A stretch of 36,258 bases of DNA from Actinomycetota bacterium (lineage in GTDB: Bacteria > Actinomycetota > Coriobacteriia > Anaerosomatales > UBA912), in assembly GCA_023488435.1 (NCBI GenBank), contig JAMDCK010000048.1, positions 1 to 36,258 of the forward strand, written 5' to 3'. The first letter of the stretch is position 1, and the number at the start of each line of letters is the position of its first letter. Of this stretch, positions 2,783 through 15,025 are shown piece by piece. The translations under genes and the position numbers were made by a program. Below the pieces are notes generated by a model. That model was not told the origin of the DNA. It saw nothing but the letters and a program-made list of their open reading frames with translations, and made no database searches.

Positions 2783-4269
2783 TCTGCAGGTCGCACTCGC
2801 AATCCATCAGTCAGTTCCGTGGGGCCCGACAAAGCGACTTCATCGCCCTCCTCGAGTCCTGACAGTACCTGCGCCTCAGTCTCGGTGACTGTTCCGACTT
2901 CCACCCGAGTACGAACCAATGTCTGTCCGTTGGTCAGCACATAGACGTGAGTCTGTCCGCCTTCATCGAAGAGCGCTTCGATTGGTATCGTCATAGCCTC
3001 AGAGATGGCCTCGATCTCAATCTCGGCATCTCCCTGCATACCGTCTCTCAGTTCTACGTCGGCCGGCACTTCGGCAAGCTCGATGTAGACCAGGAATGTC
3101 GTACCTCCGGTCGCGGTTATTTCAGCGATCGGCGAGATTCTCGTCACCACTCCGCTCAACTCCGCCAACGGAAATGCGTCCACCCTGATGAGTGCCTTCT
3201 TATCTTCGGCCACCCGCGCAATGTCGGCCTCATCAACCTGTGCGACAAACTGCCCAGTTGTCATATTCACGACCGAGAAAGGTGCTGCTTGAGGGGAAAC
3301 GGGCGTTCCGATGGTCGGTTTTACAGCTGGAGCTCCCGGTATCGCGGATCCGGCCGAGCGGAACACCACAACCCCGTTTACGGGTGCAACCAGTGCGGAT
3401 TCATCCAAGTTCCTTTGCGCTAGCGCCACTGCATCCCTGGCTTGGCTGATAGCAGCTCGAGCAGCCCGACGCTCGGGGGACAGATCTGTGCTCTCAAGTC
3501 TGTCTTGCTGGGCTTTGGCTGTCAGATATCCGATGTGGGCCTGATCCCGTGCCGCTAACGCCTGCTGGCGAGCTGCGGCTTCGTTCGCTGCGACTAAACC
3601 GGCCTCCCGTTGTTGGGCTGCGATGTGGGCCTGTCGAGCCTGCAGCATGGTAGCCTCTGCTGCGACACGAGCTCCTTCAAGCGTGGGCGTGGGTGAAGCC
3701 TCATGAGCACTCCGCGCGGCTTCGAAAGCAACCGTAGCCTGCTCATGCGCCCTACGAGTTTCTTGGGTTACCCTGCGCGCAGCTTCGACTTCTGCGGCCA
3801 TCGGTCCCGGTCCACCAGATGCTCCCGCTGCCTTTGCCGCTGCTTGATACTGCCTCCAGGCCACGTCCGTTGCCGTACGAGCTGCACGAAGCTCACCGCT
3901 CCCCGGCTCCTGTCGCTCAATCGCAGCGAGCTGGGATTCGGCTTGAACGAGGCCCGCCTCAGCCTGTTTTAGCTGCAACTCGAAGGGCTCACGCTCAAGC
4001 GTGGCGATTACAGTTCCTGATGCGACCTGCTGTCCTTCTTCTACAAGTATCGCTTCTATAACTCCCGGACTCCGAGGAAACACATCCCCTCGCTCGCCCA
4101 TCTCTATCTGTCCGGAGGCTGTCACAGCCACCCCGAGGGTTTCTACCCTCACGGCCGCTGTCTCCACTTCGACTACTGCCGAACGGGTTCCCAGGATTGC
4201 TGCCGCGGCGCCGGCTCCAATCAGGAGCAGCACTATGAACCCGACTATCAGTTTCGTCTTGCGTGACAA
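2779..4269 (-). CDS. MacA/HlyD-type membrane fusion (adaptor) protein
   Basis: This 496-residue protein starts with an N-terminal signal-anchor helix (about 6-27). A beta-barrel/lipoyl half follows (GVIEAILVEEGQQV, about 69-82), then a long alanine/glutamine-rich coiled-coil hairpin (about 95-290), the second lipoyl half (LVAPVNGVVVF) and the membrane-proximal domains. The layout is that of periplasmic adaptor proteins working with MacB-type transporters. The start is TTG at 4269-4267, chosen because a strong AAGGAGG lies seven bases upstream. It is first in a three-gene operon with the ATPase and permease. Similar adaptor-ABC sets occur in Gram-positive bacteria without an outer-membrane partner, so no TolC-like protein is needed or seen here. 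Confidence 0.88.
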   Translation of the reverse strand: MSRKTKLIVGFIVLLLIGAGAAAAILGTRSAVVEVETAAVRVETLGVAVTASGQIEMGERGDVFPRSPGVIEAILVEEGQQVASGTVIATLEREPFELQLKQAEAGLVQAESQLAAIERQEPGSGELRAARTATDVAWRQYQAAAKAAGASGGPGPMAAEVEAARRVTQETRRAHEQATVAFEAARSAHEASPTPTLEGARVAAEATMLQARQAHIAAQQREAGLVAANEAAARQQALAARDQAHIGYLTAKAQQDRLESTDLSPERRAARAAISQARDAVALAQRNLDESALVAPVNGVVVFRSAGSAIPGAPAVKPTIGTPVSPQAAPFSVVNMTTGQFVAQVDEADIARVAEDKKALIRVDAFPLAELSGVVTRISPIAEITATGGTTFLVYIELAEVPADVELRDGMQGDAEIEIEAISEAMTIPIEALFDEGGQTHVYVLTNGQTLVRTRVEVGTVTETEAQVLSGLEEGDEVALSGPTELTDGLRVRPAE

Positions 4270-4341
4270 TTGCTGCCTCCTTCGCTTCCTATTACCGTTT
4301 CGGCAATAGCAAAACTGTATCCAACATCGAACAACCAGTTC

Positions 4342-5016
4342 TTACCCTTTGTTCAGAGCATCCAACAATGGGGGCAGGGCGACTATGGTTTCGAGTGCGT
4401 GATCCACGCCAGGCCCTAGCACGGTAGCCTCTGGAAATGGACCCCATAGAGCCGCGACGCTAACCGCCCCGGCCGCATTTGCTGCCTCCATGTCGAATTC
4501 ACTATCCCCAACGTACACGCATTCCGAGGCCTTTACGCCGAAGCGCTCAGCGGCCAAGTAGAGGGGCTCCGGTTCTGGTTTGTGGCTGTCGGTGTCATCG
4601 CAGCTCACAAGGATATCGACGTACTGATCAAGCCCTGTGACAGCAAGGCCTCGTCTGGCGGCTTCACCCGCCTTCGATGTGACGACCCCAATCGGATAAC
4701 CCTTAGCCTTGAGCGCCGCTAAGGTTTCACCGGTGTTTGGGTACGACTTTACCCAAGCGTCATGGTGAATCGCATTGTGTTCTCTGTAGACTCGAAGTAG
4801 CTCATCCGAATGCTCCCGCGAGAAGCCTCTCAGCTGCTTCACCAACGGAGTTCCGATATTTCGCATGAGCTGCTCATCTGTCAGAGCCAGGCCAAGAACA
4901 GTACTAAGGGCGTGCCTCAACGAGGCAACTATCAGCGGTATCGAGTCGATCAGGGTTCCGTCAAGGTCGAACAGCACTACCCTTACGGTTCGCCGAGGAC
5001 TGCTGACATCATTCAT
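4342..5016 (-). CDS. HAD-family phosphatase, PpaX/phosphoglycolate phosphatase-like
   Basis: From the ATG at 5016 this is a 224-residue haloacid dehalogenase hydrolase. Motif I is FDLDGTLIDS, with the nucleophile and acid/base aspartates. Motif II is the VTSK segment, and the acidic motif is VGDSEFDMEAANAAG. An alpha-helical cap lies between motifs I and II, as in subfamily IA. Relatives hydrolyse pyrophosphate (PpaX) or phosphoglycolate (Gph); the substrate here is unknown. The frame stays open upstream to 5100, which would overlap the end of gyrA by 56 bases. I prefer 5016 because it gives the usual family length, although its ribosome-binding site is weak. The gene follows gyrA on the same strand. 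Confidence 0.8.
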   Translation of the reverse strand: MNDVSSPRRTVRVVLFDLDGTLIDSIPLIVASLRHALSTVLGLALTDEQLMRNIGTPLVKQLRGFSREHSDELLRVYREHNAIHHDAWVKSYPNTGETLAALKAKGYPIGVVTSKAGEAARRGLAVTGLDQYVDILVSCDDTDSHKPEPEPLYLAAERFGVKASECVYVGDSEFDMEAANAAGAVSVAALWGPFPEATVLGPGVDHALETIVALPPLLDALNKG

Positions 5017-5044
5017 CGCTTCTGCAGCATGGCTCGATGATGAG

Positions 5045-7639
5045 TTATTCGCCGCCCTCATCTCCATCATCGAATTCCTCGCTGACCAAGTCCTCTGCAT
5101 CGGCCAGACGTCTGTCTTCTTGAACTGTGCCCGGCGCTCCTTGGTCTTCGGCTGTCTCGATCTGCATGGCCGTCTGTCCTTCGACCATTCCCTTGCTTTT
5201 ATTGGCTTTCTTCCCCGCTGAAACCCGGGCTATGGCCACGACCTTGTCTGTAGGCCCGACGTTCATGACCTTGACGCCCTGAGTGGAGCGGCCCAGCTTG
5301 GAGATATCGTCCGCCTTCACCCGGATGACTACGCCCTCCAGGCTGATCAGCATCAATTCGTGCTGTGGCTGGATGATCTTCATCCCGGCCAAAAGCCCCT
5401 TCTTCTCCGTTACCTGTATGGTCCTGACCCCTTGTCCGCCACGCCGCTGGACCGGATAGGCATCAACAGGGGTACGCTTGCCGAATCCACGCTCCGTCAC
5501 CACGAAAAGTTCGGAGTTGCTGGGGGCTATCTCCATGCCCAGGGCCGCCTCCCCTTCCTTGATGTTCATGCCTTTGACTCCCATGGTGTCGCGCCCCATA
5601 GGCCGAGCATCGCTCTCATTCCAAACGATTGCCTTACCCGCCGATGAAACCATCACGACGTGCTCTCCCGACTTGACCCGCTTGACGGCGATCAGCTCAT
5701 CTCCGGATCTGAGGTTAATCGCTATAAGTCCGTCCCGCCTGCTCCGGTCGTAGGCCTGAAGGGCGGTCTTCTTGACCATTCCGGCCCTTGTTGCGAAGAG
5801 GAGGTAATCATCCGGTCCGAACTCTCGGGTGGTGATAGCGGCGGCTATCTTCTCACCCTGCTCAAATGGTAATAGATTGACTGCAGCTGTTCCTCGGGCG
5901 TGCCTTGACCCCACAGGGAGCTCGTGAACTTTCAGGCGGTACACCTTACCCTTTGTGGAAAAGAACAGCACGTAGTCATGGGTGGAACTGATGAATAGAT
6001 GTTCAACCAGATCGCTTTCTTTGAGATTGAGTCCGCTGACTCCCTTTCCGCCTCTTTTCTGCTGTCTGTATGTGGCCACAGGCAGCCTCTTCACGTAACC
6101 AGCTCTGGTGATTGTGACCACCATGTCCTCTTCGGCTATAAGGTCCTCAACATCGAGATCAGCAACTGTGCCGGCCAACTCAGTTCTTCTCGGGTTCGCA
6201 AACTTCTCCCTAATCTCTGTCAGTTCATCCTTGATGATCTGGAGCACTAGGTTTACATCGCCTAGAACTTGCTTGTACCAAGCGATCCTCTCGCGTAATC
6301 CATTGAGCTCTTCGTCGATTTTGCCTCTTTCTAGGCCCGTTAGACGCCTGAGCCTCATCTCAAGGATGGCGTCTACTTGTGCGTCTGAGAAGCCGAACCT
6401 CTCGACTAAGCTGGCTTTTGCCTGATGATCGTCTGCGCTTCCTCTTATGATCCTGATAACCTCATCGATATGGTCTAGCGCAATAACGTAGCCGTCGAGG
6501 ATATGTGCCCTCTCCTCGGCTTTCCGAAGATCGAAGGTCGTCCGGCGAACAACCACTTCCTTTTGGTGCTCGATGTAGTGTTTAAGCATCTCTGGCATGG
6601 TCAGTGTCTTTGGTACGCGATTGACCAGAGCCAGCATGATTATGCCGACGCCCGTCTGAAGCTGAGTGTGTTTGAAGAGCTTGTTGAGCACGACCTGAGG
6701 AATGCAAGAGTTCTTCAGCTCTACGACTATACGCATGCCTTTTCTGTCAGACTCATCTCTCAGATCCGATATCTCTGTGAGCTTCTTCTCCCTTACCAGC
6801 TCTGCGATTTTTGTCACTAGCTTTGACTTGTTCACCGTGTAGGGGATCTCGGTGATGATGATACGCATGCGCCCTGTCGAGGTCTGTTCTATGTGAGCCT
6901 TACCCCTGACTCTGATGGAGCCGCGCCCTGTGGCATAGTAGTCGGCTATACCCTCCCTGCCCATAATGGATCCCCCGGTTGGGAAGTCAGGTCCTGGCAT
7001 CACCTGCATGATGTCTGCTGCACTGGCGTCCGGGTTGTCTATCATCAAGAGAACAGCGTCTATCGCCTCACCGAGGTTGTGCGGAGGAATGTTGGTTGCC
7101 ATACCTACGGCGATGCCGGCCACCCCGTTGACGATTAGATTAGGGAATCTGGCTGGGAGCACCAATGGTTCTTGTAGCGATTCGTCGTAGTTGGGCCCAA
7201 AGTCCACGGTTTCTTTATCGAGGTCACGAAGCAGCTCCGAAGCAATTTTACGCAACCGCGCTTCTGTATACCGCATCGCCGCAGCGCGATCGCCGTCTAC
7301 GGATCCGAAGTTACCATGTCCGTCGATAAGCGGCTCTCGCATCGAGAAGTCTTGGGCAAGACGCACCATCGTGTCGTATACCGCCGCATCTCCGTGCGGG
7401 TGGTACTTACCTATTACTTCACCCACAGTCCAAGCGGACTTCTTGTAAGCCCTTCCCGGCGTAAGTCCTGACTCGTTCATCGCATGTAGAATCCGGCGAT
7501 GCACTGGCTTGAGTCCGTCCCTAACATCAGGCAAGGCCCTCGCTACAATGACACTCATCGAGTATTCGAGAAACGACTCTCTGAGCTCTTGCTGAATATC
7601 TACTGGAAGTACCGTTGATTCAAAAAGTTCCTCGGACAC
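5045..7639 (-). CDS. gyrA: DNA gyrase subunit A
   Basis: This 864-residue protein is the breakage-reunion subunit of gyrase, which with GyrB introduces negative supercoils. The N-terminal winged-helix/tower part includes [20 protein letters not shown] and the catalytic tyrosine in the AMRYTEARL motif (about residue 120). The C-terminal beta-pinwheel contains a gyrase-specific box, QKRGGKG (about 535), and a second, more degenerate copy, QRRGGQG, which separates it from ParC. The tail is acidic (ending DDGDEGGE). The GTG start at 7639 follows GAGGAG and lies one base after the stop of the small gene between gyrB and gyrA. The three genes form one operon. Confidence 0.98.
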
Positions 7640-8109: not shown

Positions 8110-10026
<1,917 letters not shown>

Positions 10027-10119
10027 CTATAAACTGGTCAATATGGAAGCACAATATGTGCTCAGCCAGGAGTTATGATAGCACAACCTGTTGTATATCT
10101 TTGTTGTGGTGGTTGGCCT

Positions 10120-10614
10120 CTAATCTTTGGTCGACGCCCCTTTCTTGATCTCGAGATCCAAGGCTGTAACCTTGATTGCAAGGTCTCTGAGGTGTTCGTT
10201 ATGTATACAACTTACACTCTTCTCAAGGTTGAACTTTTCGTCATCATCAAGGGGGATTTTCTTAATAACGGGTTTATTTTGAGCCATTGTTTTGCCGATG
10301 TCGTCAGACTCAGTAGTGTTGTTGACAACATAGAACACAATGTCCCTTAATGAGGCCTTACTGTTTCCTGTCGTATTGTTGATTTGAAGAATTAGATCGT
10401 GTTTGATTGCAGATAATTCTGTTGCCCAAGCCGACGAGGTAACCGCAACCTTAACCACTCCGTTCTTGAAACTGACAACCTTGGTGTTGGATGAAATTTG
10501 GGCACCAACGAGGTTATGCCACACTGATATGAGAACGGAAAGGTGGATAAAGTTCTGATTCTTACGTATACCTTTGTGATCACTAAGTAGGTTTCGGATG
10601 GGCACTAAAGACAT
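10120..10614 (-). CDS. dciA: DUF721/DciA family protein, putative replicative helicase operator
   Basis: This 164-residue protein has the N-terminal DUF721 fold: a helical start, then the pattern VWHNLVGAQISSNTKVVSFKNGVVKVAVTSSAWATEL at about residues 31-67, including the characteristic W...V(G)...I..H/T and W..EL positions. The C-terminal 80 residues look non-conserved and charged. DciA-family proteins bind DnaB and help load or operate the replicative helicase in bacteria that lack DnaC/DnaI loaders. The gene sits between dnaN and gyrB, the standard place for this family in actinobacteria. The usual recF between dnaN and this gene is missing; only about 24 bp separate the two here. Strongly AT-rich codon choice is visible. 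Confidence 0.75.
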   Translation of the reverse strand: MSLVPIRNLLSDHKGIRKNQNFIHLSVLISVWHNLVGAQISSNTKVVSFKNGVVKVAVTSSAWATELSAIKHDLILQINNTTGNSKASLRDIVFYVVNNTTESDDIGKTMAQNKPVIKKIPLDDDEKFNLEKSVSCIHNEHLRDLAIKVTALDLEIKKGASTKD

Positions 10615-10638
10615 CTATCCGCATCCTAAATTCAGACG

Positions 10639-11736
10639 CTAGTTTATCCGGACGGGCATGATCACATACATATATCCATCCCGATCTTCAGATCTGATCA
10701 GTCCTGGTTTTAGTGGACTCACAACATTTAAATTGATTGTGTCTCCAATGGAAGCATTGATTCCATCGAGAAGGTAATTGTGGTTATATGCCATCTCTAC
10801 ATCGACACCACTCACTTCTGCAAACACCTCTTCTTTGGCATTTCCTATATCTTGACTAGTGGATATCAGAGTAAGTTTGTTATCTTCTGTTGATACCATC
10901 AGGCGTATTGATGTGTTGTGTTGTGTAAGTATTGCGACTCTCTTTACAGCTTCGAGTAGGTCCTTTTTGTTCACTTTAAGGGTTGTCTGGAAATCAGTTG
11001 GGATTAACTGCTTGTAGTTCGGGAAGGTGCCTTCAATCCTTCTTGTGATAAACGTGTCTTTAGCTACATCCATAATGATTTGATTATCGGTTATGGCTAT
11101 TGAGAGCATGTCGCCAGTAGTGGACTTGACTACATCCTCGAATATTTTACCGGGAATGATTACCTCGAGGTTTTCGTTATTGTTTTCCAGCATGACACTA
11201 CTAACCGCAAGTCTATATGAGTCGGTTGCCACCATAGTGAGTTTTGAATCGGTTATTGTCATATAGATTCCGGTTAGTATAGGCCTGGTTTCATCCCTAC
11301 TGATCGCCTTATTTACTTCTTGGAGTGATTCCAAGATAACTAGCCGGGGAATCAAGATTTTTTGACTGATATCTAATACGGGAAACTTAGGAAACTCCTC
11401 ACTCTGCAACGTTGATAGAGTGAATAAAGAGCGTTCACATTTTATTTGGAGACTATTGTTTTCAACGACCAAACTAACGGAAGCTGATGGAAATGATTTG
11501 ATTATCTCTGAAAACAGGCGTCCGGGGACTACAACGACACCAGGCTCGGAAACTCTGCTTTGAATCACTGATCTAACAGATATCTCTAAATCTGTTGTGG
11601 ATAGGGTTACCTGACCATCGGCACTTGCTTCTATCCGTACTCCAGACAAAATCGGGATTGTGGATCTCGAGGATAAACCTTTTGTAATCACAACAATCGA
11701 CCTGAGTAGTTCTTCCTTGTCAACAACTAGGTTCAT
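10639..11736 (-). CDS. dnaN: DNA polymerase III sliding clamp (beta subunit)
   Basis: This 365-residue protein has the normal length and the threefold-repeated clamp domain structure of DnaN. Recognisable parts are the N-terminal LSTTDLEISVRS segment, the central MVATDSYRLAVSS segment and the C-terminal YMYVIMPVRIN end, which contributes to the partner-binding pocket. The clamp ring tethers DNA polymerase III to DNA and recruits repair and initiation-control proteins. It is downstream of dnaA, separated from it by the AT-rich 230-bp spacer that probably contains the unwinding element. Its base use is visibly richer in A and T (ATA, TTA and AGA codons) than in genes farther from the origin. 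Confidence 0.97.
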   Translation of the reverse strand: MNLVVDKEELLRSIVVITKGLSSRSTIPILSGVRIEASADGQVTLSTTDLEISVRSVIQSRVSEPGVVVVPGRLFSEIIKSFPSASVSLVVENNSLQIKCERSLFTLSTLQSEEFPKFPVLDISQKILIPRLVILESLQEVNKAISRDETRPILTGIYMTITDSKLTMVATDSYRLAVSSVMLENNNENLEVIIPGKIFEDVVKSTTGDMLSIAITDNQIIMDVAKDTFITRRIEGTFPNYKQLIPTDFQTTLKVNKKDLLEAVKRVAILTQHNTSIRLMVSTEDNKLTLISTSQDIGNAKEEVFAEVSGVDVEMAYNHNYLLDGINASIGDTINLNVVSPLKPGLIRSEDRDGYMYVIMPVRIN

Positions 11737-11966
11737 GGTAGTTACTACTCCTTAAATTCAATGAACTTTAAACAACAGTAATAGTAATAGGACTACTTTG
11801 TGTTGATAACTACTTTTCCTACAGCTAAACCCATCAATCTTAAGACATCAAACTTGTTGATATTGATACTCGAGTATGGGGAAAATTCCCTACAGATAAT
11901 ACCACCCGTTCTAAAATCAACAATTCGTCCACATGTTATTAGACACCTATCCACGATAAATGAAAC
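11737..11966. other. AT-rich dnaA-dnaN spacer, probable origin unwinding region
   Basis: This 230-bp non-coding segment is strongly AT-rich. On the strand shown it reads AGTAATAGTAATAG at 11777-11790, then a short spacer, then TGTTGATAA at 11801-11809. The last is the complement of TTATCAACA, one mismatch from the DnaA box. Weaker box-like words lie at 11855-11863, 11925-11933 and 11947-11955. The order and orientation (box, short spacer, TAG/TAA triplets, AT-rich run) are those of the basal unwinding system with DnaA-trio in the dnaA-dnaN spacer of Bacillus subtilis. No gene is seen. The function is inferred from this resemblance. Confidence 0.6.
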
Positions 11967-13373
11967 CTAATTCCTCTGCTTGATTATGTTGGTCAACTCC
12001 TGGATCTGGCTGTAGACTTCTCTTTCGCCGGCCATCATGTTTTGAATCTTCGCTGTTGCATGCATTACGGTCGTGTGATCTCGTCCTCCAAACTCTCCAC
12101 CTATTCTAGGTAATGAGAGATCGGTCAACTCACGAGCAAGATACATTGCGACCTGCCTAGGATAAACAATACTTTGGGACCTCTTACTACTTATCAATTC
12201 AGTATGGGTAATGGAGAAGAACTTACAAACCTCCTTTTGGATGGAGGATATAGAAATAGGCCTAGATCTACGCTCAGGAAAGATATCCTTCAACACACTA
12301 CTGGCTAACTTGATATCTATCGTTTGTCTTGTTAGTGAGCTGTATGCCACAACGCGGATCAAGGCGCCCTCGAGTTCTCTAATATTCGATGAGATTCTAT
12401 CGGCGATAAACATCATCACTTCAGAGGGCACATTTAGACGCTCAGTTTCTATTTTTCTTTTCAAGATCGCGATTCTTGTTTCGAGATCAGGAGGTTGAAT
12501 GTCTGTAATCAAACCCATTTCAAAACGACTTCTCAACCGCTCTTCTAACATTGCGATGTCTTTTGGGGGCCTGTCAGACGACAAAATCACTTGTTTGCCG
12601 GACTGCTGTAATGTATTGAATGTATGAAAGAACTCCTCTTGGGTCCCCTCCTTACCCTTTAAGAATTGAATATCGTCGATCAACAAGACGTCGTTAGTCC
12701 TATATTGTTTCCGAAAACCACCAATTCTCTTTTTGTCCCTATCGGCTATTGAGTTGATAAAGTCATTCGTGAATTGTTCGGATGTTACATAGCACACCTT
12801 CATATGAGGAAATCCTTGATTTACGTACTTGGCTATAGCGTGAAGTAAATGTGTCTTACCTAACCCTACCCCCCCATAAATAAAGAGCGGGTTATAGGCT
12901 CTACCAGGTGCTTCTGCGACAGCCAACGCTGCAGCATGAGCGAAACGGTTAGATGTTCCTATAACAAAGGAATCAAAAGTGTATTTTGGGTTCAATGTAC
13001 TGAGCTTAGGTTCACTCGGAGATATTTTCGACAAAACTCGGTCCGAGGGAGGCAGTGGAGGTTCTAGTTGCTCATCCTTGAAACTTTGTCCAGTAGGCGT
13101 TGTTGGTTCCTCGTGAATAATGAACTTAACTACCAATGGCTCGTCTGTAACAGAGCGAAGGGCTGACGCAAGCAGGTCCGAGTACCGCGATTCGAGCCAA
13201 TCCCTGGCAAATTCATTCTGGACTCCAATTATCAGACTCCCCCCTGAGATCTCGAGTGGGCTCATGTGCTCGAACCATGTCTTGAACGTAGGAGTGTTGA
13301 GCTCAGCACGAACAACATCAAGAACGCTAGCCCAAAGCGACGACATGGTGGAATCGGCCCTATCTATAACCAT
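11967..13373 (-). CDS. dnaA: chromosomal replication initiator protein DnaA
   Basis: This 468-residue initiator has all four domains. Domain I (about 1-80) contains [12 protein letters not shown], and a variable linker follows. The AAA+ domain carries Walker A in [13 protein letters not shown] (about 168-180) and Walker B in LLIDDIQFL (about 230). The C-terminal helix-turn-helix includes the DnaA signature [11 protein letters not shown] (about 430). Conserved box-binding residues are present, so recognition of ordinary TTATCCACA-type boxes is expected. The ATG at 13373 follows GGAGAT by eight bases. Only 12 bp separate it from the stop of the GHKL/winged-helix gene upstream, so the two are probably cotranscribed, with the promoter lying in the origin region. 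Confidence 0.98.
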
Positions 13374-13385
13374 GAATAATATCTC

Positions 13386-14447
13386 CTATTCCGAGAATAA
13401 CTGGTTCACACAATTGACTCCCGCGCGGGTGAGAGTCCTGCGGCCGACGTCGTTTTGTTCGATCAGACCCACCATGGTCAAATGCTCTAAGTCCCGAAAG
13501 GCCGTTGATAGGCCCACCGAGAGCTCTTTGGAGAGCAGTGTCGGCCCCACCTCGCCGTATTCGAAGGCCAAAGCTAAAACCTTCTTTTGCCTAGGAGTTA
13601 GATTGTTATCATGATTCTGAATCTCGGTGACTTGGGGCGTAAGGACTCCGTCGGCCGAGTTCGTCGGGGTACCGGAAGGGAGGGCTGCTTCCAATGTGAG
13701 AACTGTGCCGGTGCCGAGGTTGTCCTCAATTGAAAAGTTGCCCCCACTGCGAGTCAGGTAGTCGCTTACTAGGGGTAGACCAGAACCGACTCCACGAATT
13801 ACGGCCTTCATGTCCGAGCTCGCTGTAGTGAATCCGGGCAACAGGGCGTGAGCTTTGTTTGAAATGCCGGGCCCTTGATCTGCAACTCTGAGCACGCGAC
13901 CAGATTCCAAAATCGAAACCACTACATTACGAAAATCAGCATGAATCAAGTTCTCCATGATTTCTCTGATGACAGCGTAGGGAAAACTACCGCCCATTTC
14001 GCAAACTAATCGGTGGGTGCCGCTGCTCAGCTCCTCGATGAGTGAACCAGCAGACGAAGACTGGAGGACAGTCATTTTAGGGGGAGTGCCGAGTGAGTCA
14101 TAAACCACAACTTCGGCAAGGAAAAGATGTGAGTGCGAAGGCGCGGGCTGATCAACTTCATTCAGTACCGTATACATGCGTGCGCCTTCGGAAACCCGAG
14201 TTGCATTCTCAAAAAAAGTCCTCAACGCGCTTCCTCCATTGGAGCCAACGGATAACACTGTTAGGAACAAGCAAAACCAAAGCTCACCCAGAGTTCGATT
14301 AGCAGCACCTAAACTTGGGAGTCCCAGGCCCCACAACTCGTGTTTCCAGTTATCAACAGGACTTTCCATAAATGTGGACAACTCCTCCCCGAGGGTGGAT
14401 GTAACTATCCGAAGAGTGTCAATTCCCGCCGCCGGACAATTTTCCAA
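13386..14447 (-). CDS. GHKL-type ATPase with C-terminal winged helix, adjacent to oriC and dnaA
   Basis: This protein of up to 353 residues has three parts. The first is an N-terminal region of about 130 residues with no recognised domain and some hydrophobic stretches. The second is a histidine-kinase-like ATP-binding domain (about 155-265) with N-box REIMENLIHADF, G1 box VADQGPGIS and G2 box GVGSGLPLV. The third is a C-terminal winged helix (about 285-350) in which LTPRQKKVLALA is followed by a helix-turn-helix-like segment. No phospho-accepting H-box is evident, so it looks more like an anti-sigma/GHKL regulator than a sensor kinase. The TTG at 14447 lacks a ribosome-binding site. An ATG at 14369 preceded by GGGGAGGAG is a reasonable alternative (327 residues). 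Its position suggests a role in controlling dnaA or initiation, but the function is unknown. Confidence 0.75.
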   Translation of the reverse strand: MENCPAAGIDTLRIVTSTLGEELSTFMESPVDNWKHELWGLGLPSLGAANRTLGELWFCLFLTVLSVGSNGGSALRTFFENATRVSEGARMYTVLNEVDQPAPSHSHLFLAEVVVYDSLGTPPKMTVLQSSSAGSLIEELSSGTHRLVCEMGGSFPYAVIREIMENLIHADFRNVVVSILESGRVLRVADQGPGISNKAHALLPGFTTASSDMKAVIRGVGSGLPLVSDYLTRSGGNFSIEDNLGTGTVLTLEAALPSGTPTNSADGVLTPQVTEIQNHDNNLTPRQKKVLALAFEYGEVGPTLLSKELSVGLSTAFRDLEHLTMVGLIEQNDVGRRTLTRAGVNCVNQLFSE

Positions 14448-14519
14448 GCAAACAATATTCGAAAATCAGTCGAGTTCTGTGGAAAAGGCCAGCAGAGAGC
14501 GAACGAATATACGTAGCAT

Positions 14520-14528
14520 TGTGGATAA
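14520..14528 (-). promoter_or_regulatory. perfect DnaA box
   Basis: TGTGGATAA on the plus strand is the exact complement of the consensus TTATCCACA. It is the only perfect match I found in the origin region and anchors the surrounding set of one-mismatch boxes. Confidence 0.8.
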
Positions 14529-14811
14529 CTATTCACGATCTGCCTACAGGCATCATTGAGTTGCATTTGGTGCGGCTATTCAGTATTTCAAGGGACAATC
14601 GCACTGTGCAAAGCTTGTTGTAGGAAGGCGATGGTATCAGAACGCAGCCCCACTAGATATGAGTGGGCGAATGTTGTCCACAGGGCGGGCGACCATAAGT
14701 CCTGCGTTTTCCACAGTATCCACAGAATGGAGGAGAGTTTGAGGTGGATGCACGCCCATAAATTTCCGGGGTGCAGAAAGTGACAATACGAGGAACTTAG
14801 TAGGTGGCAGG

Positions 14812-14841
14812 TTGACATTATGGTCCCCGCATCTATACAAT
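14812..14841 (+). promoter_or_regulatory. probable promoter for rpmH-rnpA operon
   Basis: A perfect -35 hexamer TTGACA (14812-14817) is followed after 18 bases by TACAAT (14836-14841), one mismatch from the -10 consensus. Transcription would start about 40 bases upstream of the rpmH start codon. It is placed at the right edge of the DnaA-box cluster. Confidence 0.6.
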
Positions 14842-14890
14842 CGTCGGGCTGTCCGCCCTGGTTCTGGGGCGGCGAATGGAGGAAATTCAG

Positions 14891-15025
14891 TTGAAACGCA
14901 CATACCAACCTAATAACCGCAAGCGAAGCAAAACACACGGCTTCAGAGTGAGAATGTCCACAAAAGCCGGCAGAGCGATAATCTCCGCACGTCGCAGAAA
15001 AGGACGTGCAACCCTAACAGCTTAG
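14891..15025 (+). CDS. rpmH: 50S ribosomal protein L34
   Basis: This 44-residue basic protein reads [20 protein letters not shown] and continues with [20 protein letters not shown], the unmistakable L34 pattern. It is a small large-subunit protein that binds 23S rRNA. The start is TTG at 14891, with GGAGG at 14878-14882, about eight bases upstream. It is the first gene to the right of the origin and is followed ten bases later by rnpA, the usual rpmH-rnpA arrangement. A DnaA-box-like word inside the gene (14954-14962) is encoded by the conserved MST residues and is probably coincidental. Confidence 0.97.

Follow-up and report, generated by a model that had tools for sequence, protein, structure and literature searches.

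Introduction

Detailed knowledge of how bacteria regulate replication initiation comes from a small number of model lineages. Regulators described as acting on DnaA or oriC include SirA, YabA, Soj, Hda, SeqA, DiaA, AdpA and MtrA; to our knowledge none of them joins a GHKL ATPase domain to a winged helix (wHTH) or has its gene between oriC and dnaA, at the head of the dnaA operon. Here we describe such a gene from a window of 36,258 nucleotides, the whole stretch of Actinomycetota DNA that was analysed. It resembles the known regulators in its proposed role and, as regards Soj, also in its genomic nearness to the origin. The closest solved fold is that of DIP2311 from Corynebacterium diphtheriae (PDB 3LMM; 272 columns, E 2.4e-8, 18% identity with Foldseek), where a GHKL domain is likewise followed by a winged helix, and histidine-kinase catalytic domains come next. 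DIP2311 carries an N-terminal AlbA_2 (Schlafen-like) domain. The N-box E-x-x-x-N is that of GyrB, MutL, Hsp90, PDK and SpoIIAB, with the glutamate serving as general base; histidine kinases are usually without it. We found no study of a GHKL-wHTH gene beside dnaA in the open-access literature, and for this reason regard it as probably an overlooked regulator of the timing of replication start.

Position and limits of the gene

The minus strand open reading frame ending at 13386 encodes an HATPase_c domain (PF02518, E 1.7e-9, which passes the cut-off) followed by a predicted C-terminal winged helix. Its start had been placed at 14447 in the initial annotation, which adds 74 spurious codons made of oriC sequence. 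The real start is almost certainly the TTG at 14225, because it is preceded by a GGAGG Shine–Dalgarno sequence and yields an N-terminus, MRTFFE, that fits the MKxFF/Y start conserved in the family. Most members from the window's order (length about 265-290 aa) begin in this way straight after a strong Shine–Dalgarno sequence. The features around the gene are as follows:

13386..14225, minus strand: GHKL-ATPase/winged-helix gene with corrected limits, TTG start at 14225, TAG stop at 13386-13388, 279 aa; placed by Shine–Dalgarno sequence and family N-terminus
14233..14237, minus strand: Shine–Dalgarno sequence GGAGG of this gene, read from the sequence
13383..13387, minus strand: Shine–Dalgarno sequence AGGAG of dnaA, overlapping the TAG stop of the GHKL gene, read from the sequence
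11967..13373, minus strand: dnaA, 468 aa, which also served as the query for dnaA searches in relatives
14891..15025, plus strand: rpmH (bL34), the divergent neighbour of the origin, from the sequence and the loci of relatives

The 12 bp distance to dnaA given in the initial annotation is confirmed by the window sequence. Since the dnaA Shine–Dalgarno sequence overlaps the stop codon of the GHKL gene, translation of the two genes is probably coupled, and the spacing by itself suggests that they may also be co-transcribed.

Domain structure and ATP site

The domains and boxes of the protein map to the minus strand of the window:

13686..13979, minus strand: GHKL ATPase domain (HATPase_c, PF02518), residues 83-180, model pLDDT mostly >90
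13938..13964, minus strand: N-box EIMENLIHA, residues 88-96, with E88-x-x-x-N92 and H95 invariant in 98/98 members
13866..13880, minus strand: G1 box DQGPG (D116, G118, G120), 98/98 members
13779..13793, minus strand: G2 box GVGSG (G145, G147, G149), 97-98 of 98 members
13392..13613, minus strand: predicted C-terminal winged helix, residues 205-278, from the AlphaFold model and TrmB/IclR/MarR-type family matches; the family HMM match reaches into this region

The ATP-binding boxes had been recognised from the window alone, and the comparison with relatives upholds them: 97 of 98 members retain the full set, and E88, N92, H95, D116, G118, P119, G120, G145 and G149 are invariant in all 98, members of two phyla included. 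PF02518 is matched by all of the 58 family members searched, and the three boxes together with the HATPase_c fold (from Pfam, the 98-member alignment, the model and Foldseek) place the protein in the GHKL superfamily. The conserved residues predict that it binds and hydrolyses ATP.

For the winged helix, the window protein alone gives a weak match, but TrmB is matched by 45/58 members and HTH_IclR by 42/58, and the AlphaFold model (pLDDT 85) predicts the fold at the C-terminus with high confidence; these family matches and the model assign it to the winged-helix fold. In the model a variable low-confidence tail is followed by a beta hairpin (35-56), the GHKL core, a low-confidence linker (about 181-204) and the winged helix (205-278). 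Many proteins from other families within the class have about 60-200 additional residues in this linker. In several class members (locus L064, 34-1179, and other frames of 320-490 aa) the stretch that joins the GHKL domain to the winged helix is long and Pro/Gln-rich. No NCBIfam or Pfam family was matched above its curated cut-off over the whole protein. A role as a defence gene was considered and rejected, the PADLOC matches being weak and confined to the wHTH part that is common with Csa3/CasR. The family also departs from DIP2311 in that AlbA_2 is absent among the Pfam matches listed, the N-terminus consisting instead of the variable tail and the beta hairpin, and in that it gives HATPase_c whereas HATPase_c_4 is absent among the matches listed.

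With the catalytic domains of histidine kinases (KinB, 3D36; HK853; CckA) the family has the HATPase_c fold and the G1 and G2 boxes in common, and the solved structures nearest in sequence include the KinB catalytic domain and others of this kind. A degenerate two-component sensor kinase is nevertheless highly improbable. The family has no dimerisation/His domain (HisKA is absent among the Pfam matches listed for 58 members), its N-box is the E-x-x-x-N of hydrolases and Ser kinases in all 98 members, a winged helix is added, and the ATP site is conserved almost perfectly, not decaying. The only invariant histidine, H95, lies within the N-box and no histidine outside this box reaches 30% across the 98 members, which agrees with the absence of a phospho-histidine box remarked on in the initial annotation.

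The E-x-x-x-N box is also what the family shares with the anti-sigma serine kinases SpoIIAB/RsbW and with PDK/BCKDK, and profile similarity extends to branched-chain ketoacid dehydrogenase kinases and sporulation kinase B. The protein could accordingly be imagined as a PDK/BCKDK-like or SpoIIAB-like Ser/Thr kinase whose substrate is DnaA or some other partner and whose winged helix serves for docking. We consider this improbable. The conserved DNA-binding domain, an addition relative to SpoIIAB/RsbW, favours action on DNA, and no sigma-factor, anti-anti-sigma or STAS partner gene is evident beside the gene in the window, where its neighbours are dnaA and rpmH. Assignment to SpoIIAB/RsbW itself fails by a wide distance (13 bits with the spIIAB model against a cut-off of 135), and HATPase_c_2 is absent among the matches listed.

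Conservation of the locus next to dnaA

The order rpmH <- oriC -> gene -> dnaA (-> dnaN) was found in all 33 loci first compared, and further loci show the same arrangement of rpmH, oriC, gene and dnaA wherever the contig reaches. Across about 90 loci the gene stands head-to-tail with dnaA, with a median gap of 12 bp and frequent 4-bp overlaps. When the coordinates of the GHKL gene match were compared with those of the dnaA match in 80 further genomes, the two were adjacent, co-directional and within 3 kb of each other in 74; three of the others lie across the junction of a circular contig, two are contig breaks and one is a local inversion. This last case, genome G445, is the sole true rearrangement among the 80: the gene has been inverted and separates rpmH from oriC; it is read divergently from dnaA and still abuts oriC. 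The inverted locus is L152 (G445:C15:54000-66000, at 3196-5330), and L100 from the same genus keeps the standard order. Homologues scattered away from dnaA had been named at the outset as the outcome that would speak against a role in its control, and linkage held at every retrieved locus long enough to show it.

Such an order is inherited in the class and in other deep branches, from rpmH through oriC and the gene to dnaA and dnaN, so that the word 'inserted', used for the gene in the initial annotation, has to be given up. The distance matrices of the GHKL protein and DnaA are correlated over 78 loci (r = 0.75, reached by 0/999 permutations). This correlation shows shared descent, and an interaction between the two proteins does not follow from it alone; at the level of sequence, the gene is co-inherited and co-evolves with DnaA. 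A mobile or inserted gene was rejected, given vertical co-inheritance and the same site everywhere.

With a broader profile an orthologue, nearly always as a single match, was present in 190/199 high-completeness genomes of the window's class. A profile search across the phylum found it in 154/396 genomes, and 38/43 genomes of a second phylum have it; the MAGs through which the latter entered the survey bear the title 'Terrabacteria group bacterium ANGP1' or, in one case, Armatimonadota. The distribution covers deep Actinomycetota, probably Coriobacteriia, Rubrobacteria and others, and a second phylum. Among 61 relatives searched most have a strong orthologue with 44-54% identity; a contig scan with window-specific peptides detected three relatives only. 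Fifteen genomes of the order gave no strong match. Eleven of these are also without dnaA and are therefore regarded as assembly gaps, the assembly of one (G010) breaks at the 5′ end of dnaA, and three (G012, G023 and G028) are true losses in which dnaA comes straight after oriC, the rpmH-dnaA interval measures 610-940 bp and no copy exists elsewhere. The gene is thus not indispensable everywhere.

Since these gene-less lineages retain rpmH, dnaA and dnaN together, the block itself is stable, and the gene could be a bystander, a housekeeping gene of unrelated function that was retained as the rpmH-oriC-dnaA block seldom rearranges. We hold this to be unlikely, though less so than a Ser/Thr kinase. 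It accords poorly with the stop/start overlap with dnaA in many lineages, with co-inheritance at the same site in two phyla and with an architecture that is that of a regulator.

The origin region

The origin was placed between rpmH and the GHKL gene because of its DnaA-box words and the switch in GC skew:

14226..14890, no strand assigned: oriC/promoter region from rpmH to the GHKL gene, with DnaA boxes, GC-skew switch and a box pattern conserved in 30 loci
14350..14381, both strands: two DnaA-box words, TTATCAACA (+) and TTGTCCACA (-), from a word search, earlier placed inside the gene
14478..14528, minus strand: DnaA-box words TTTTCCACA (14478-14486) and TTATCCACA (14520-14528), from a word search
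14674..14724, plus strand: DnaA-box cluster TTGTCCACA, TTTTCCACA, GTATCCACA, from a word search

Seven DnaA-box-like words lie at 14350-14724; the whole window has 22, where 9.9 +/- 2.9 would be expected. The sign of the GC skew switches at about 13.5-15 kb of the window. The origin upstream of the gene is thereby substantiated, as is, through PF02518, the family matches and the model, the presence of a gene for a GHKL ATPase with a winged helix between the DnaA-box region and dnaA. One detail of the earlier description does not survive: the two words at 14350-14381, thought to lie at the 5′ end of the gene, sit about 125 bp upstream of the corrected start and were drawn into the gene by the misplaced start at 14447. 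Over about 90 loci the density of DnaA boxes is 2.8 per kb in the interval between rpmH and the gene and 0 in the gene or in the gap to dnaA. Three further DnaA-box-like words, each with one mismatch (11717, 11801 and 11925), occur at the dnaN start and in the dnaA-dnaN gap (window 11717-11933).

In the 30 loci of the window's order the interval from rpmH to the gene measures about 665-775 bp, has conserved DnaA-box clusters at both ends and contains a minus-strand rpmH promoter (TTGACAC/TATAATC). A conserved sigma-70-like promoter in the plus direction (TTGTTG-N17-TAGAAT), reading towards the GHKL gene and dnaA, lies inside oriC about 450 bp before the gene in L001-L030; the window's own copy is degenerate. 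A motif search of these intervals with three sites per sequence yielded, ab initio, the element TTGAAAACnCCTGnTCA, which is not a DnaA box and is repeated in the oriC of the order (L001-L030) at about -420 (+), -150 (+) and -80 (-) from the gene. We do not take it as a proven operator: its first copy persists in the gene-less locus L122, it is degenerate in the window, and it has no prominence in the second phylum or in most other classes. An unconstrained EM motif search of the regulatory region collapsed to A-runs and gave no operator, 8-mer enrichment by group yielded mainly promoter words and the TTGAAAACnCCTGnTCA element, and an operator for the winged helix was thus not demonstrated by the motif and 8-mer searches of the oriC intervals.

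The narrow length range and conserved box layout of the order's oriC, and the fact that the gene touches oriC even in G445 where it is inverted away from the dnaA operon, are what one might expect of a component of the origin complex. Such a protein would not be mainly a transcription factor; it would bind oriC and, through its ATP state, promote or block DnaA assembly, strand opening or helicase loading. A site between oriC and dnaA is equally expected for a regulator of the dnaA operon, however, and three lineages manage without the gene, and we consider an origin-complex component a minority possibility, at roughly one chance in five.

A proposed model for the control of dnaA

The reading that we favour, on anatomical and evolutionary evidence and with about an even chance of being correct, is that of a protein that regulates the oriC-dnaA operon through ATP-gated DNA binding. 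Promoters inside oriC would drive transcription of the GHKL gene along with that of dnaA. In the soluble product, the GHKL domain would bind or hydrolyse ATP and thereby set the DNA-binding state of the two winged helices, probably with ATP-dependent dimerisation as in GyrB and MutL. The protein would then bind the oriC/promoter region and adjust its own expression and that of dnaA, and possibly the readiness of the origin, in step with the level of ATP or the state of growth. Control of dnaA expression or origin firing by ATP or by a partner, as proposed in the initial annotation, would be compatible with this scheme; the DNA target, the direction of control and the phenotype are what we infer from it.

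This single-copy, uncharacterised gene is kept between origin and dnaA by a whole class, which probably includes common human gut bacteria, and by several distant lineages; its product combines an invariant ATP site with a DNA-binding domain. Should this protein control DnaA or oriC, it would be an initiation regulator built on a GHKL domain, of which we know no example. More tentatively, and with somewhat less than even odds, the family may represent an ancient class of replication-initiation regulators, so far uncharacterised, in which an ATP-sensing GHKL domain with a winged helix, encoded at the head of the dnaA operon and bound to oriC, would link the energy state to the supply of DnaA or the firing of the origin in deep Actinomycetota and a second phylum.

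Composition and gene content around dnaA

Over dnaN-dnaA (window 9000-13500) the G+C content falls to about 43%, compared with about 55-64% towards the ends of the window. Between dnaN and gyrB recF is absent in the window, where 10017-10639 holds just a 164-aa ORF; in L152, which is from the same class, a RecF-like ORF follows dnaN at 8676-9803. One genome encodes, besides a standard dnaA, a second and diverged DnaA-like protein with 39% identity (G273:C9:1648-2946).
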